This document shows positions 17,642-35,615 of a stretch of 64,000 bases of DNA, piece after piece. Both the position numbers and the translations under genes were made by a program. Under the pieces are notes generated by a model that had not been told where the DNA came from, did no database searches, and was given only the letters and a program-made list of their open reading frames with translations. Source of the stretch: Nitrosomonas sp. Nm84 (GTDB taxonomy: Bacteria > Pseudomonadota > Gammaproteobacteria > Burkholderiales > Nitrosomonadaceae); contig NZ_QJJP01000005.1 in the NCBI RefSeq assembly GCF_003201565.1, forward strand, positions 1 through 64,000, read 5' to 3'. The stretch's first letter is position 1. Each line of letters opens with the position of its first letter.

Positions 17642-18027
17642 TCACAACAATTCTACTGCACAGCCAGTAAATATTAGCGCATTCGCTTACTTGACTGCAC
17701 ACACGACAGCGCTGGCAATATAAAAGCATTTTTGTTGCTCATATCTATTATCTCAAGCGGTTATAAATAATCTTGGGATGAGTATGGCTTTTATCACATC
17801 GCCAATTATTCCAATTCCCTAGCATAGCCCATGCAATTAGTTGGTAAATGTATAGGGAAGAATTGATCGGATTCCACAACATCGCAAACTGACATATCTC
17901 TCTAAGAATATTAGGGAATTATCGATGTTAAGTGTACTTTTCGCGCACCAATTTGGAAACCTATTTTAATCAATGCTTCATCTGTGCTGACAGTTTTGTC
18001 AGCAGAAATCTTAAAAAGGAAATCAGT
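17642..18027. other. Intergenic region upstream of the haloperoxidase-type gene
   Basis: No convincing gene, hairpin or known operator is visible. An open frame reaches upstream of 18028 to 17932, but the first 32 codons look non-coding and lack a ribosome binding site. Promoter elements could not be picked with confidence. Confidence 0.4.
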
Positions 18028-19500
18028 ATGGATCACATCTTATATTGGAATAATGTCGCACTCGAGGCCAATCGCCGCGACTTCAGTAATGTACCTGGCA
18101 CCGATAATCCCAATCCTAAACCTGAACAGGGCGGCCCGACACTCAGTTCCCGTGCCTTGGCCATTGTACATTTGGCAATGTATGACGCGCATGCTGGTGT
18201 CATCAGCAATCCGGCCACGCTGCCACGCTACCTCGCTTCACCATCCGCACCGGTTGGTGGCGCCAGCGCGGCCGCATCAGTAGCAGCTGCAGCACATGCT
18301 TGCTTGAGCGCTTTGTACCCGCGCCAGAAGCATCATTTCGATGCAGCGCACCAAGCTGCAGGCCTATCCGGTGCGGGACTTGCTGAGGGTCATGGCTTCG
18401 GACTGGCCGTAGCTACAGCGATACTGGCCGACCGTGCCAAAGATCCAGGTGCAGGCGATGACGGCTATGCTGCTTCGATGCATCCCGGCGGCCACCGTCC
18501 CGACCCGGCCAATCCGAAGCAGGGTTTTCATGCACCTTTCTACGGCGCACGCAGCAAGGGTTTCGCAATCACGAAACGGCATGAGCTTGACAAACCACCT
18601 GCTCTTGGAAGTGGGGAGTATAACAAGGCACTTAAACAGGTTCGAGGCAAGGGCATTGCGCCTGAATGGATAGGCACACTGCCAGACCACCTCGAGAAAC
18701 GCACACCGGAAGAAACATTAATCGGCCTATACTGGGCCTACGACGGTCCACGCGAAATCGGAACACCACCACGTTTCTTCAACCAAATCATTCGCAAACT
18801 TGTGACAACTGCAATAAATCCGGCTACGGGCATGATCAACACCGTCGATGACAATGCGCGCTTATTCGCGTTCGTAAACGTGACGATGGGTGATGCCGGC
18901 ATTTTAGCTTGGGATCAGAAGTATATTCACGACTTCTGGCGACCAGTGCTGGGTATCCGTGAACACAGTGCTTCGATGGGACCTGCCGCACCCACACCTT
19001 CGCACGCCATCGGTGATGACTGCGATCCCTGCTGGCTGCCGCTGGGTGCCCCCGCAAGCAACAGCAACGATCGCAATTTCACGCCCCCGTTCCCGGCTTA
19101 CCCATCGGGACACGCTACCTTCGGAGCTGCTGCGCTGCATGTAACTCGGTTATTCTATGGTATTGCTCACAACAATCGCGCCACCGACAAGCTATTCAAG
19201 CGTTCCTTGGTTTCCGATGAACTCAACGGTATAACACACGACAATGCTGGTAATGTTCGATCGCGACATGCGCGACACTTTCCGGGTGGACTCTGGCAGA
19301 TGATCGTGGAGAATGGCTTTTCTCGCGTGTTCCTTGGCGTGCACTGGTCGTTTGATGCGTTCGCACTCGACAACGCCAACAAGCCCGATCTGACGCGCAA
19401 TATCGGCGGTGTGCCGCTGGGATTAGCAATTGCAGAAGATATTTTTGCTGCAGGTGGAGGCAAGGCGCCCGCTAAATCTTGTGTTGAACCACGACCCTAA
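18028..19500 (+). CDS. Vanadium-dependent haloperoxidase / PAP2-type phosphatase family protein
   Basis: The 490-residue protein has the vanadate/phosphate-binding residues of this superfamily: the Lys and Arg of QKYIHDFWRPV, the YPSGHAT motif and SRVFLGVHWSFDA near the C-terminus (Arg, His, Asp). Family members either oxidise halides with hydrogen peroxide or remove phosphate; the sequence alone cannot tell which. No signal peptide is seen, so it is probably cytoplasmic unless exported by another route. The ATG at 18028 is preceded by AAAAGGAAA. It has no operon partner, and its GC-rich codon use is somewhat higher than the flanks. Confidence 0.82.
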   Translation: MDHILYWNNVALEANRRDFSNVPGTDNPNPKPEQGGPTLSSRALAIVHLAMYDAHAGVISNPATLPRYLASPSAPVGGASAAASVAAAAHACLSALYPRQKHHFDAAHQAAGLSGAGLAEGHGFGLAVATAILADRAKDPGAGDDGYAASMHPGGHRPDPANPKQGFHAPFYGARSKGFAITKRHELDKPPALGSGEYNKALKQVRGKGIAPEWIGTLPDHLEKRTPEETLIGLYWAYDGPREIGTPPRFFNQIIRKLVTTAINPATGMINTVDDNARLFAFVNVTMGDAGILAWDQKYIHDFWRPVLGIREHSASMGPAAPTPSHAIGDDCDPCWLPLGAPASNSNDRNFTPPFPAYPSGHATFGAAALHVTRLFYGIAHNNRATDKLFKRSLVSDELNGITHDNAGNVRSRHARHFPGGLWQMIVENGFSRVFLGVHWSFDAFALDNANKPDLTRNIGGVPLGLAIAEDIFAAGGGKAPAKSCVEPRP

Positions 19501-22597: not shown

Positions 22598-22673
22598 TTT
22601 GTGAATTAAGTGTAATTTATTTGTGATTTATTTGTGAATAATATGTGAATTTTTTGTGAACTTAGGCTATAAT
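22598..22673 (+). promoter_or_regulatory. Promoter with six direct 11-bp repeats (TTTGTGAATTA type)
   Basis: Six copies begin at 22598, 22609, 22620, 22631, 22642 and 22653, so the period is exactly 11 bp with no gaps. The units are TTTGTGAATTA, AGTGTAATTTA, TTTGTGATTTA, TTTGTGAATAA, TATGTGAATTT and TTTGTGAACTT; the GTGA core is kept in five and is GTAA in one. A perfect TATAAT box follows at 22668-22673, so the last repeats occupy the -35 region. Direct repeats of 11 bp are the binding pattern of OmpR/PhoB-family response regulators (Pho boxes). It points at the SulP transporter gene at 22837. The regulator itself is unknown. Confidence 0.75.
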
Positions 22674-22753
22674 GTCTACTCTAAAAGAGGGATTAACTTG
22701 TGACTTTCTTAAAAGAAAGATCGGGAGTTTAAAAGTTCTTTTCAAACGATCCA

Positions 22754-22827
22754 TATCTAAGAGGGATGTTAGAAAAGCTAAATGATTAAACTATTTTTTA
22801 ACAAAACTAAGTTGTGTATCTAAGAGG
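22754..22827 (+). repeat. Direct repeat TATCTAAGAGG in the SulP leader
   Basis: TATCTAAGAGG occurs at 22754-22764 and again at 22817-22827, 63 bases apart; a looser copy (CTAAAAGAGGGAT) stands at 22681. The last copy contains the ribosome binding site AGAGG of the transporter gene at 22837. A short hairpin (CTTTCTT/AAGAAAG) lies at 22704-22719. The leader of about 155 bases is long for a gene without obvious attenuation, so post-transcriptional control is possible. Confidence 0.5.
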
Positions 22828-22836
22828 AACTTACTT

Positions 22837-24414: not shown

Positions 24415-24651
24415 ATGGTAAGTCATAGGAATTTTATTCTTTCTTTAATGATGATATTGGTGGTTTTTTTAGCAATGTATATCGGTACTAAGCAACCTGC
24501 TATCAATCCCAGTAGTATAAACATTACATTAAGTGATGATGTATGGGCAGGTATAGCCTTATTTGTTAACTATTTGCTAATAGCTTGTTTTGTTGGGGAA
24601 CCAAAATCTCAGTCTTTCTCAACCTATGATCCTGATAAGAAATCAATATAA
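24415..24651 (+). CDS. Small membrane protein next to the SulP transporter
   Basis: From the ATG at 24415 the product is 78 residues with two membrane segments (about residues 6-24 and 44-62) separated by a polar loop. A longer frame starts at 24334, but its extra 27 residues look non-coding. No family is recognised. It lies 234 bases after the transporter, ahead of a strong terminator, so it could be cotranscribed and act as an accessory subunit; this is inference. The ribosome binding site is weak. Confidence 0.5.
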   Translation: MVSHRNFILSLMMILVVFLAMYIGTKQPAINPSSINITLSDDVWAGIALFVNYLLIACFVGEPKSQSFSTYDPDKKSI

Positions 24652-24867: not shown

Positions 24868-25383
24868 ATGAAAGTAAAACGTTCCGGGTTTTTCGGAGAT
24901 AAAATGATTTGAGAGGAGGAGAAGATGAAAAATCAAATCAGTTATTCGCCGCGGAAGTACGAGAACGATCGGTAAGATTGGGATTCGAGCAGGCATATCG
25001 ACATCGGATCTGGCAATGTTCAAGGAATGGGGCGAGAAAATCGGGGATTAAAACGTGCCAGCGAAATATTACGTAAGGCATCGGCATATTTTGCGAAAGG
25101 ATGTTCGACCGCCGACCGAAGTGATGGCGACTCTTATGACAATGCACTAGCCAAAACGATTAATGGATTATACAAGACTGAGGTCATAAAACATCGCGGC
25201 TCCTGACGCAGTATCGAAGAAGTGGGGTTTGCTACCTTGGAATGGGTGGATTGGTTCAATAGTCGCTGGTTACTGGAGCCGACCACCAGCAGAATTTGAA
25301 ATGGCATATTATCGCCAATTAAAGGAGTCAGCTAATGCAGCTTGACTCAAACCAAACAGTCTCCGGAAAACCGGGGCGATTCA
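24868..25383 (+). pseudogene. Decayed IS3-family element (orfA and orfB remnants)
   Basis: Left and right termini with the CCGGGTTTTTCGGAGA and CTCCGGAAAACCGGGGCGATTCA-type pattern (right end at 25383) enclose frameshifted pieces of both transposase genes. orfA starts at 24925 (MKNQISYSP) but is broken within 16 codons. The orfB tail reads GDSYDNALAKTINGLYKTE with a later EWVDWFNSRW, separated by stops. Most of orfB including two catalytic residues is deleted; the remaining length is about 0.5 kb against 1.2 kb for an intact copy. The right terminus touches the metal-permease gene and supplies its stop codon. Confidence 0.82.
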
Positions 25384-26214
25384 CCTCCTTAGGTTTATTG
25401 AGAGACTATGAATCGGTTTTGCCAGCAATGACAAGCTGAACAATAGCGCACTGAACAAAACGATGGTTGTTCCAGAGGCTACATTAAAAACATAGCTGAG
25501 ATACATACCGATTACACCGGTTATGGAACCTATCAGGGTTGAATAAATGATCATTTTGCTAAAGCTGTCTGTGAGCATTCTTGCCGTCATAGCGGGTGCG
25601 ATCAGTGTGGCGGCTACCATGGTGACGCCGATTACGTTAAGGGATGCGATGACGGAAAAGGTTAGCAGAAGAGAAAATAAAAACTGTACCGACTCGGTTT
25701 TGATGCCAAACACGCGTGCAGCTTCATTATCAAATGTAGAAAAGAGGAGTGCTCTATACGAAAAAAACATGGTGACCAGTGTGATGGTTGTTACCAATCC
25801 AATAACCATCAAGTCATGATCAGTGATTCCAAGAATATTGCCAAATAAGGCGGCCTCAAAGTTCTGCTTAAAGTTGCGCAATTTACTAACAATCGCGACG
25901 CCCAAAGCAAACATAGCCGTTGTTACAATACCGATTGCGGCATCTAATTTGATCTTGTTGTTTTGTGTGATTTTGTTGATGGCCAATACGGCTAACAAAC
26001 CCATGGCAAAAGCGCCGGCATAAAAATTCAGATTTAGCGTAAAGCCCACCACGGCGCCACCAATCGCGGCATGAGATAATCCATGCCCGACATAACTCAT
26101 GCCACGTAGCACGACATATACGCCAATCATGCCACCGGATGCACCGACTAACAAAGCAGCCAGCAAGGCGCGACGAAAGAACTCGTACTCGAGTGGCTCG
26201 AGGAGAAATTCCAT
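25381..26214 (-). CDS. ABC transporter permease, ZnuB/MntB type (metal uptake)
   Basis: The 277-residue protein has eight to nine membrane segments and is a cluster A-I (ABC-3) permease: GMIGVYVVLRGMSYVGHGLSHAAIGGA and FGIKTESVQFL are typical. It forms the inner-membrane channel for the metal delivered by the binding protein at 27010. Its stop codon (25381-25383) lies within the right terminal repeat of the decayed IS3 element, so the original C-terminus may have been replaced. The start overlaps the ATPase stop by one base. Zinc, manganese or nickel cannot be told apart from sequence; nickel is suggested by NikR nearby. Confidence 0.85.
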   Translation of the reverse strand: MEFLLEPLEYEFFRRALLAALLVGASGGMIGVYVVLRGMSYVGHGLSHAAIGGAVVGFTLNLNFYAGAFAMGLLAVLAINKITQNNKIKLDAAIGIVTTAMFALGVAIVSKLRNFKQNFEAALFGNILGITDHDLMVIGLVTTITLVTMFFSYRALLFSTFDNEAARVFGIKTESVQFLFSLLLTFSVIASLNVIGVTMVAATLIAPAMTARMLTDSFSKMIIYSTLIGSITGVIGMYLSYVFNVASGTTIVLFSALLFSLSLLAKPIHSLSINLRR

Positions 26215-27035
26215 TAGTGCTTTTCATCCCTAAAATGAAGGGGAGTACTGTTGGCGATTAACAGGTGTCCTTCGTACTTAACGATCACAATGTCGCCGCC
26301 ATACGTTTGAGTTAGGATTTCATTGGTAAAAATATCATGCGGCTGACCTTGTGCGACAACACCTCGATTAAAGCAAATAACCCAAGGTAGATGGGAAGCC
26401 ACGGCATTCAGATCGTGCGTGGTCAATAGAATGGTCATGCCTTCTCGATTGAGGTCGCTCAATAAATGCAATACTTCATGCTGGGTTTTGATATCGACGC
26501 CTGAGGTGGGTTCATCCAAAATCAGAAGCTTAGGGTTGCTGATTAATGCACGCGCAAGAAACACACGTTGTCGTTGACCACCCGATATATCGATAATATG
26601 CTGTTGCAAGCAACCCTCAACACCCAACCGATGAGCAAGATCGTGAACATTTTTACGCTCTTCTTTGCTGAGCCAAGGCAAAATGCGCCCATTGGTGTAC
26701 AGTCCCATCGCAATGACTTCTTCGACAGTAACCGGAAAATTCCAATCGACGCTGCCAAGTTGTGGCACATAACCGACAGTGCCTGGCTTCACCTGGCTTA
26801 TTGGATTATTGTGCAACTGTATCTTTCCAGAAATCACCGGATGAATGCCTAGAATGATTTTAAGCAGTGTAGTTTTGCCACAGGCTGTGGGACCCACAAT
26901 ACCAGCAAACTGACCCGCAGCAATATCCAATGACAAATCAGAAAATACCACATTCTGTTCATAGCCGGCCACGACATTGCTCAATTGGACGGCAGCGCTG
27001 AGCTGCACATTAAAAAGTGATGTTGCTTGCATCAA
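26214..27035 (-). CDS. ABC transporter ATP-binding protein, ZnuC/MntA type
   Basis: The 273-residue ATPase has Walker A GPTACGKTTLLK, signature ISGGQRQRVFLARAL, Walker B LLILDEPTSGVD and the H-loop TTHDL. It powers the metal importer formed with the permease at 25381 and the binding protein at 27010. Its Walker A reads T-A-C where most members have N-G-A, still a valid P-loop. It overlaps the binding-protein gene by 26 bases and the permease by one, showing a tight operon. Confidence 0.88.
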   Translation of the reverse strand: MMQATSLFNVQLSAAVQLSNVVAGYEQNVVFSDLSLDIAAGQFAGIVGPTACGKTTLLKIILGIHPVISGKIQLHNNPISQVKPGTVGYVPQLGSVDWNFPVTVEEVIAMGLYTNGRILPWLSKEERKNVHDLAHRLGVEGCLQQHIIDISGGQRQRVFLARALISNPKLLILDEPTSGVDIKTQHEVLHLLSDLNREGMTILLTTHDLNAVASHLPWVICFNRGVVAQGQPHDIFTNEILTQTYGGDIVIVKYEGHLLIANSTPLHFRDEKH

Positions 27036-27984
27036 TATTGGCCATGCAGATTGAATTGCCTCCCAGTGCTTTGGTCATGATAACCATGTTGTTCATCATC
27101 ATGCCAATGAAAGAGTTATTAGGTGGAGCAGGTAGTTCATCATCTGAAAGCTGATCAATAAATTTGACATTTGCCTCGCGTGCGATTTGTTCCATCACTT
27201 TACTAGAAAAAACTTCTGAACCAAATATTGCGGGCACAGCAGTCTTTCTGATCTGCTTAACGATACTAATGACTTCTTGCGGACCAGGCTCGGAAAAATC
27301 CGAGGGTTGTATGGCGGCGATCACGGTCATGCCATAGCGGGGTGCAAAATATGCAAAAGAATCATGATAGGTGACTAACTTGCGGTTATTCTGAGGAATC
27401 GTTTCGATACATTTGAATATTGCTTGATCCAATTTCTGCAGCTTGGCGAGATAAATGGTGGTGTTTTCCAGATAGCTTTTTTTATTGATGGGATCAAGCG
27501 CGATAAGACTTTCTTTGATTATCTCCACATACCGCATGACTAATTCGATATTCAGCCATAAATGCGGATTGGGATGCCCGTGTTCGCGCGGGAAACTAAA
27601 ATCATATTGCCAATCGTCTTCTTTCAATGCGTGGTTTCCCAATTGCAGAATGCGAGTCTTAGGTTTTTTTACCTTCTCTGCGAGTATTAATGTGGGCAAT
27701 TCGAGATCCAAGCCATTAACGATAATCAAATCAGCCGATTGTAATATTTTTATATCCGAAGGGATGGGTTCAAATGTGTGAGAATCCGTTCCATCCGGAA
27801 CAATGCCCGTAACACTGGTGTGAATCCCTCCAATATTTTGCACCATATTCGTAATCGGAGAAACGGTTGTTACGATTTTAAGTTTCTCATTCGCATCGGA
27901 TGCGAGAAGTGAACCCTGAAAGAAAAGCGTTAATAAACACAATAATAACCTTATCGCAATGTGGTTATCAGTTAATCTCCCCAT
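27010..27984 (-). CDS. Periplasmic metal-binding protein, ZnuA/MntC type (cluster A-I)
   Basis: The 324-residue protein has a signal peptide (LLLCLLTLFFQGSLLA, cleavage near residue 29) and the two-lobed cluster A-I fold. Probable metal ligands are the His of GTDSHTFEP, of NPHLWLN and of VTYHDSFAYF, and an acidic residue of QLSDDELP. Three His plus an acid resembles zinc-type members rather than manganese ones, which have Glu at the third place; the His-rich loop of classical ZnuA is absent. With NikR, a TonB receptor and urease around it, nickel is a plausible cargo. GGGGAGGGG stands before the ATG. It is first in its operon and divergent from the TonB receptor at 28090. Confidence 0.83.
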   Translation of the reverse strand: MGRLTDNHIAIRLLLCLLTLFFQGSLLASDANEKLKIVTTVSPITNMVQNIGGIHTSVTGIVPDGTDSHTFEPIPSDIKILQSADLIIVNGLDLELPTLILAEKVKKPKTRILQLGNHALKEDDWQYDFSFPREHGHPNPHLWLNIELVMRYVEIIKESLIALDPINKKSYLENTTIYLAKLQKLDQAIFKCIETIPQNNRKLVTYHDSFAYFAPRYGMTVIAAIQPSDFSEPGPQEVISIVKQIRKTAVPAIFGSEVFSSKVMEQIAREANVKFIDQLSDDELPAPPNNSFIGMMMNNMVIMTKALGGNSICMANIDASNITF

Positions 27985-33908: not shown

Positions 33909-35615
33909 CTAGAATAGAAAATACCGTTGTGCCATCGGCAATACATCTTCCGCGCCACATGTCAACAACTGGCCATCCGCGCGTACCTCATAGGTTTCCG
34001 GATCAACTTCCATCTTGGGTGTTGCGCTATTGTGAATCATGTCTTTCTTACGCAGATTGCGAGTATTTTTGACTGGAATAATGTGTTTGTCGAGCTTCAG
34101 TTGATCAATTAAATCAGCATTCAATGCTGCTTGCGAAGCGAATGTGAAGCACGATGTCTTAATTCCCCCACCATATCCACCAAACATATACCGATAATGT
34201 ACCGGTTGAGGTGTTGGGATCGATGCATTGGGATCACCCATCAAAGATGCAGCAATCATTCCGCCTTTTAAAATCATGGATGGTTTTACACCGAAGAAAG
34301 CAGGTCTCCATAATACAAGATCTGCATACTTACCAACCTCTATGGATCCAAGCGCATGTGAGATACCATGTGTAATGGCCGGATTAATTGTGTATTTGGC
34401 AACATAACGCTTGACACGGAAATTGTCATTTCTTGAACTATCTTCTTGCAGAGTGCCGCGTTGTATCTTCATCTTATGCGCGGTTTGCCACGTGCGTAAT
34501 ACGACTTCACCAATACGTCCCATTGCTTGGGAGTCTGAGGACATCATCGAGATGGCACCCATGTCATGCAAAATATCTTCGGCTGCGATCGTTTCTTTGC
34601 GAATACGTGATTCTGCGAAAGCGAGATCTTCTGCAATATTGGCATGTAGATGATGACATACCATCAACATGTCTAAATGCTCATCAAGAGTGTTCACTGT
34701 ATAGGGACGAGTTGGATTCGTCGATGATGGCAAAACATTATCTTGACCTACGACTGCGATAATATCCGGAGCATGCCCACCACCTGCGCCTTCTGTGTGG
34801 AAAGTATGAATAGTTCGATCTTTCATGGCAGCAATGGTGTTTTCCAAGTAGCCACCTTCATTAATGGTGTCAGTATGGATAGCAACCTGAACGTCATATT
34901 TATCTGCAATGTTCAAACAGTTATCGATTGCGGCGTAAGTCGTACCCCAGTCTTCATGGAGTTTTAGACCGCAAGCACCAGCAAAAACTTGTTCTTCAAG
35001 TGGAGTTGGTAAACTGGTATTACCTTTACCAAAAAAACCTGTATTCATCACAAGCCCGTCAGACGCTCTAAGCATCGAATGAATATGCCAAGGGCCCGGT
35101 GTACAAGTAGTTGCTGCTGTTCCCACTGCAGGTCCAGTACCGCCACCAAGCATGGTAGTAATACCATTCATCATGGCATCTTCAGCTTGTTGCGGAGAAA
35201 TGAAGTGAATGTGAGTATCAACACCACCCGCAGTAACAATCGAATTTTCACCCGCGATGATTTCGGTGGCAGATCCAATAATCATCGTAACATTAGGTTG
35301 AATATCCGGATTCCCAGCTTTACCGATGCCAGCAATTTTGCCGCCCTTGATACCGATATCGGCTTTAACAATTCCCCAATGATCAATAATGATCGCATTA
35401 GTAATTACCGTGTCCATGACATCTGCATGATTATGCTGAGATTGTCCCATACCATCCCGAATCACTTTCCCGCCGCCAAACTTCACTTCTTCCCCGTAGG
35501 TGGTGAAATCTTTCTCAATCTCTATAAAAAGCTCTGTATCGGCTAGACGAACACGGTCGCCAGTTGTTGGGCCCATCATTTCAACATAGGTTTGACGGGA
35601 AATTTTTACGCTCAT
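33909..35615 (-). CDS. ureC: Urease subunit alpha (catalytic)
   Basis: The 568-residue amidohydrolase holds the two-nickel site. Seen are the HIHFISPQQ metal-binding pair, the carbamylated Lys in GLKLHEDWG, the [12 protein letters not shown] segment, the mobile-flap MVCHHLH and the catalytic [18 protein letters not shown] region. It hydrolyses urea to ammonia and carbamate. Length is standard (566-572). It follows ureB by 33 bases, with CAGGAG before its ATG. Confidence 0.97.

Follow-up and report, generated by a model that had tools for sequence, protein, structure and literature searches.

Head-to-tail 11-bp repeats before a SulP gene of Nitrosomonas sp. Nm84: a candidate operator of an OmpR/PhoB-family system linked to inorganic-carbon uptake

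In Nitrosomonas sp. Nm84, six head-to-tail units of 11 bp lie ahead of a TATAAT element and a SulP transporter gene. They were found in the window, by which we mean the whole stretch of 64,000 nucleotides that was analysed. Arrays of this kind recur in the genus and the family and stand, in Nitrosomonas, mostly before small open reading frames (ORFs). The same half-site lies between the genes for a response regulator and its kinase, the regulator being called RR-A here, and a neighbouring gene for inorganic-carbon metabolism. On balance, the array is probably a multi-site operator of an OmpR/PhoB-family system, RR-A being the most likely regulator, that is tied to inorganic-carbon uptake; this assignment is made from sequence comparison.

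Array and promoter of the SulP gene

The units of the array start exactly at 22598, 22609, 22620, 22631, 22642 and 22653 and read, in order, TTTGTGAATTA, AGTGTAATTTA, TTTGTGATTTA, TTTGTGAATAA, TATGTGAATTT and TTTGTGAACTT. TGTGA occupies an identical position in five of them, the second unit carrying TGTAA. An earlier note on this DNA had described six gapless, in-phase repeats followed by TATAAT and a SulP gene, and each of these features is borne out (Table 1). The two highest Tandem Repeats Finder scores of the window (92 and 70) belong to this array, the next being 48. A three-unit pattern allowing up to two mismatches matches four times in the window, every time within the array, against a chance expectation of 0.18 on average; four or more matches were obtained in none of 100 shuffles. 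The geometry is of the OmpR/PhoB type, in which direct half-sites lie 10–11 bp apart, with six units here in exact 11-bp steps. A regulator of this family would bind head-to-tail, one protomer per unit, reading TGTGAA-N5-TGTGAA.

The array was also said to touch the -35 region. It does span that place, but the sequence there is GTGAAT (22645–22650), and no -35 hexamer is found at the usual 17-bp spacing from TATAAT. A promoter of this make-up fits activator-dependent transcription with a bound activator in place of the hexamer, and the array would accordingly be an activating site. Fold prediction of the leader RNA gives nothing unusual (z -1.35) and no known RNA is present in the leader at Rfam gathering scores, the sole Rfam match of the window sitting inside urease.

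Table 1. Features of the SulP locus and the regulator genes discussed in the text; coordinates without a contig refer to the window, and G000 is the genome of Nm84
Feature	Position	Strand	Remarks
Candidate operator array	22598..22663	+	Six head-to-tail 11-bp units, core TGTGA(A); read from sequence
TATAAT, likely -10 element	22668..22673	+	4 bp past the last unit, 8 nt past the last TGTGA
Leader between -10 and SulP	22674..22836	+	At most ~45 nt at the 3′ end align with relatives
SulP transporter, 447 aa	22837..24180	+	PF00916 as sole Pfam match (E 6.6e-25); no STAS
small2, 78-aa small membrane protein	24415..24651	+	Homologue of the relatives' second small gene (tblastn E 6e-25)
RR-A, response regulator	G000:C11:9891-10577		Followed by histidine kinase, then sbtA-sbtB
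PhoP-like regulator with kinase	G000:C4:28262		In 58/61 Nitrosomonas genomes, with or without arrays

Recurrence of the array and the genes behind it

The host genome comprises 3.47 Mb in 89 contigs, and the named relatives nearest to it by SulP belong to Nitrosomonas. The earlier note had made its reading depend on an array upstream of orthologous SulP genes, and one of four or five units is present in all five of the closest relatives (83–88% identity), 685–873 nt before SulP. In these relatives the array does not adjoin SulP, a small ORF (frameshifted in one copy) standing immediately behind it. The same arrangement of array and small ORF ahead of SulP is found in N. supralitoralis (six units) and isolate GW-Mt58 (five units). 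The order in the relatives is array, small1, SulP, usp and small2, a usp-like gene followed by small2 being seen downstream of SulP in four named loci (L031-L034). In the window neither small1 nor usp of this cassette has a significant match, and small2 is retained. The alignment with the relatives spans the array and picks up again only at most ~45 nt before SulP. This gap and the absence of small1 indicate that the small gene and most of the DNA upstream of SulP were lost or replaced, leaving SulP directly under the array. In the relatives the array would drive the small membrane protein next to SulP, and in Nm84 loss of that gene would have placed the transporter behind the array. The next SulP homologues (L007-L010, 80–81%) carry no match above 11.1 bits within 900 nt to the 17-bp matrix described below.

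A scan of the host and related genomes with the array motif, a check that the earlier note had proposed, shows that arrays recur in the genus and the family. With at most one mismatch, the pattern gives 218 matches in 47 of 61 Nitrosomonas genomes and the reversed pattern eight; matches are overlapping 27-mers, so that one four-unit array may be counted twice. Together with the shuffling result, this answers the concern that the repeats occur at random in an AT-rich genome. Genus g27 has matches in 22 of its 23 genomes and g28 in all nine (14 against two in the control); g26 gives a single match, in one of eight genomes, against two in the control. The host genome itself has two further arrays of four units, at C11:57410-57447 and C14:89382-89419, which precede membrane proteins of 79 and 73 aa, respectively, and one of three units at C9:40820 before a gene assigned by eye to the TolC type of efflux. 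A looser array at C19:20852-20900 (L066) consists of TGTGA/TGTGT units ~230 nt before a 1545-aa ORF.

Conservation was read from 43 non-redundant arrays, a set that excludes four efflux loci (L063, L139, L143, L151), L066 and three near-identical arrays, and in which arrays from related species are counted separately and are not independent. The last two units are summarised by TGTGAAcTTTTTGTGAA. TGTGAA is kept across arrays while the spacers diverge; at position 4 of the last unit, 38 of the 43 have G and none has C. Some arrays contain TGTTA variants. In many, a TATAAT- or TCATAT-like sequence, identified by eye, starts ~8–11 nt past the last TGTGA, single columns being weakly conserved.

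The genes behind the arrays were surveyed for 51 Nitrosomonas arrays of three to eight units. These came from 35 regions among the matches listed, picked before their genes were known, five SulP-relative regions, the window, four arrays of the host genome and two named loci; L031 and L033 were kept out because L130 and L132 already represent their contigs. Small ORFs were required to encode 55–90 aa, to begin 40–90 nt past the last unit after a ribosome-site-like motif, and to contain two or more hydrophobic segments (Kyte-Doolittle, window of 19 residues). Such an ORF stands behind 31 of the 51 arrays, compared with 34 of 2743 random intergenic controls and none of 51 when the opposite flank of each array is taken. 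Of the other 20, four lie before TolC-type efflux genes (by eye), one is the window's own array ahead of SulP, and 15 fall outside this definition. These 15 include a frameshifted small gene (L130), a small gene with a later start only (L131) and four arrays in a duplicated stretch of genome G026. The proposition that all arrays precede small proteins is thereby ruled out. The description of the window's array as an operator of SulP needs amending: it directly precedes the gene at this locus, but Nitrosomonas arrays mostly precede small membrane proteins, and SulP would not be its primary target.

Of 39 short ORFs behind arrays, 33 form one blastp group together with small2 of the window (E 1e-3, single linkage), a grouping that supports rather than proves common descent, as chaining may occur when hydrophobic sequences are joined in this way. 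No match over the cut-off was obtained for these proteins (eight against Pfam, three against NCBIfam). A group of tiny membrane proteins is thus exposed that shares one promoter design and has no Pfam or NCBIfam match over the cut-off among those scanned.

A second class of target is seen at L063, L139, L143 and L151, from four species, where three-unit arrays lie 35–36 nt before the TolC-type genes (by eye). The duplicated block in G026 (L135, G026:C15:31500-37000) has its four arrays in a row with -10-like sequences between them and contains, in one reading, a very short ORF ending ...FLILESFV. Beyond the fetched Nitrosomonas set, 25 distinct arrays from 11 genomes were read. Two of those from g28 are followed by an ORF of 71 aa that contains two hydrophobic segments. 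Of the 16 distinct arrays from g27, none is followed by a small two-segment ORF, and no class of target could be recognised. The link to small proteins is therefore shown for Nitrosomonas and suggested for g28, and the g27 arrays give no sign of it. Two g27 arrays of five units (L244, L254) lie 253–289 nt before a hisG-like ORF.

Candidate regulators and sites beside inorganic-carbon genes

Four proteins of the host genome match Trans_reg_C: a PhoB accompanied by PhoR, another PhoB, a PhoP-like regulator and RR-A. The last two are each paired with a kinase, and that of RR-A is followed by sbtA-sbtB. The earlier note had proposed an OmpR-family response regulator and left it unnamed; the family is supported, and among these four a candidate can be named, RR-A, whose gene lies beside sbtA. 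RR-A combines PF00072 and PF00486, as in the OmpR family, and the next gene encodes HisKA and HATPase_c domains. It is present at no less than 70% identity in 51 of 61 Nitrosomonas genomes. Sixty loci yielded 42 RR-A proteins, of which 41 share the recognition-helix stretch DTLRSHMHxLRRxL. The best NCBIfam match is PmrA (E 2.1e-48, 164.9 bits against a cut-off of 330), and among the best 25 of 103 families none of the named equivalogs (PmrA, PhoB, CreB, QseB and others) exceeds its cut-off. The closest solved relatives include BasR/PmrA structures 8jo2 and 4s04.

In the host genome the gap between the RR-A kinase gene and sbtA contains TTCACGAATTCTTCACA, the opposite strand of which, TGTGAAGAATTCGTGAA, amounts to two units of the array motif. 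RR-A loci were read in 25 Nitrosomonas cases and in 19 more from Nitrosomonas, g27 and g28, 44 altogether. The next gene on the same strand after RR-A and its kinase is sbtA, SulP, dabA or carbonic-anhydrase-like in 35 of the 44; three loci lie at a contig edge (G005, G097, G107) and six have no inorganic-carbon neighbour (G026, G079, G006, G009, G101, G104). The neighbours belong to four unrelated families, SbtA (PF05982), DabA (PF10070), SulP (PF00916) and carbonic-anhydrase-like (PF20686), confirmed by Pfam for SbtA and DabA at two loci each and for the carbonic-anhydrase-like protein at one, and otherwise assigned by eye from N-termini. SulP relatives thus sit beside RR-A and its kinase in a place that sbtA or dabA holds in other species, and from this neighbourhood the SulP of the window is probably a bicarbonate transporter.

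The sites were scored with a 17-bp matrix built from arrays only, leaving out RR-A loci, efflux loci, L066, three near-identical arrays and the window. In the gap between kinase and next gene the score is 15.0–23.1 bits in 34 of the 35 loci with an inorganic-carbon neighbour; since the TTCAC repeats had been spotted by eye before the matrix was built, it measures these sites rather than discovers them. G005 gives 15.0 bits. The sole miss, G126, has a carbonic-anhydrase-like neighbour but a weak site of 6.1 bits. All six loci lacking such a neighbour stay below 8 bits in the gap, and G101 has a 14.4-bit match just before RR-A itself. In nearly all loci the match beside RR-A is far above the next-best one, and in G131 the array-pattern search on its own returned the gap behind the RR-A kinase.

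Of 87 genomes with RR-A at this level of identity, 77 have array matches, as do four of the 18 without it (105 genomes, Fisher 4e-8), an association that is confounded by phylogeny and whose p value overstates it, as the genomes lacking RR-A probably represent few lineages. Ten genomes have RR-A and no array match. The site adjacent to RR-A is kept in seven of them (G014, G015, G019, G024, G063, G075, G098); it is absent in G104, and none is seen in G107 up to the contig edge, the tenth genome, G097, being another whose locus lies at a contig edge. The four genomes with array matches and no detectable RR-A are G004 (75% complete), G130 (93% complete), and G012 and G087, where the matches are chance-like.

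A paralogue of RR-A, 41–49% identical, lies at most ~2 kb from SulP in seven genomes (G002, G010, G013, G019, G026, G027, G031). TTAACA/TTCACA repeats are visible by eye before SulP in species that bear it (L013, L016, L017, L018, L050). The recognition helix of the N. aestuarii paralogue, SDALRTHFSYLR, resembles that of RR-A, SDTLRSHMHILR. These similarities fit a small group of regulators, RR-A and the paralogue, that would read TTMACA/TGTKAA. No paralogue of this type is found among the four regulators of the host genome. RR-A is the most likely binder of the array in the window, and the signal would be the supply of inorganic carbon.

Competing explanations, related systems and neighbouring genes

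The sites beside RR-A present TTCAC towards the gene and the arrays present TGTGA towards the gene and its likely -10 element, which is the opposite orientation; either one protein would have to act from both or one class of targets would be repressed. The orientation also lends some weight to a different regulator of the arrays, the PhoP-like protein or one outside the OmpR family, the site beside RR-A being a look-alike. E. coli PhoP uses 11-bp repeats of (T)GTTTA, which the TGTTA variants of some arrays recall. This explanation is unlikely, though it is the strongest competitor: the PhoP-like gene also occurs in array-less genomes, no in-phase TGTNA pair is found in the four loci read around it, and the prominence of the matrix match beside RR-A speaks against a look-alike.

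E. coli-type Pho boxes consist of head-to-tail 11-bp units with a TGTNA core, just upstream of the -10 element where a -35 would be. The arrays resemble these PhoB operators in geometry and core, and probably in placement, and with two PhoB-like proteins in the genome, control of SulP by PhoB under phosphate starvation has to be considered. The array core is TGTGAA, whereas the Pho boxes of the host genome carry TGTCAT and are separate from the arrays; they lie before phoB2 (CTGTCATAAAAATGTAAT, almost unchanged in three further species) and before one pstS-like gene (TTGTCATAATTCTGTAAC), the second pstS-like gene having none. The absence of C at position 4 among the 43 arrays and the occurrence of PhoB in 60 of 61 Nitrosomonas genomes, including those without array matches, weigh against it likewise. 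PhoB is thus a highly improbable regulator of the array, and the CTGTCAT half-site that identifies a Pho box is lacking. The earlier note is supported in proposing an OmpR-type multi-unit operator other than a Pho box ahead of an anion transporter. It had contrasted the six units with the two to four usual for Pho boxes; the number does exceed these, and lies inside the range of three to eight found for the present arrays.

A chance or satellite repeat with no regulatory role could be expected from AT-rich intergenic DNA (GC of the stretch 0.376), in which slippage can create short tandem repeats, and the g27 arrays have no recognised target class behind them, but the chance expectation in the window, the reversed-pattern control, the retention of TGTGAA between diverging spacers and a constant position ahead of small ORFs, at a frequency well over that of the controls, contradict it and leave it scarcely any probability. 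Just as little can be said for half of a CRP/FNR-type site (TGTGA-N6-TCACA), which shares the TGTGA pentamer, since all units in the window are direct, none is inverted at that spacing, and arrays consist of three to eight direct units.

The preferred assignment, to an OmpR/PhoB-family system with RR-A as its probable regulator, also invites comparison with PmrA/BasR, whose half-sites are 11 bp apart. RR-A resembles PmrA/BasR in its best family match, although below the cut-off, and in its solved relatives, but differs in the TTCAC/GTGAA half-site of its system and in having inorganic-carbon genes as neighbours. These neighbours belong to the inorganic-carbon toolkit of autotrophs (SbtA, SulP/BicA, DabA complexes). 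A review of this field lists SbtA, SulP and multisubunit complexes as carriers (PMC10880623), and its main text contains neither 'two-component' nor 'response regulator'; five regulator words likewise gave no match in PMC12628692. The literature search, whose scope lay outside most subscription journals, returned no description of such a system.

A wider interpretation is more tentative, and we would not yet favour it: an undescribed two-component system of ammonia oxidisers may sense inorganic-carbon supply and use one 11-bp half-site in two orientations. As one arm, two or three units with TTCAC towards the gene would serve transporters and carbonic anhydrase; as the other, in Nitrosomonas, three to eight units with TGTGA towards the gene would serve the large group of related tiny membrane proteins. 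The latter proteins may act as partners of the transporters or hold them in check. If this is true, a single regulator with a single operator code and a defined set of genes would make carbon uptake by ammonia oxidisers responsive to a signal.

Three other features of the window were recorded. An Rfam match to 5' ureB sRNA (RF02514, 109.5 bits) at 35183-35459 (+) lies antisense inside a urease-alpha-like ORF (33909-35615, minus strand) and is probably coding similarity. A vanadium chloroperoxidase-type protein (PF17897) is encoded at 17932-19500 (+) upstream of tex, which precedes the array. Downstream of SulP, at 25381-27984 on the minus strand, are genes for ZnuA, an ABC ATPase and an ABC-3 permease of the zinc- or metal-uptake type.
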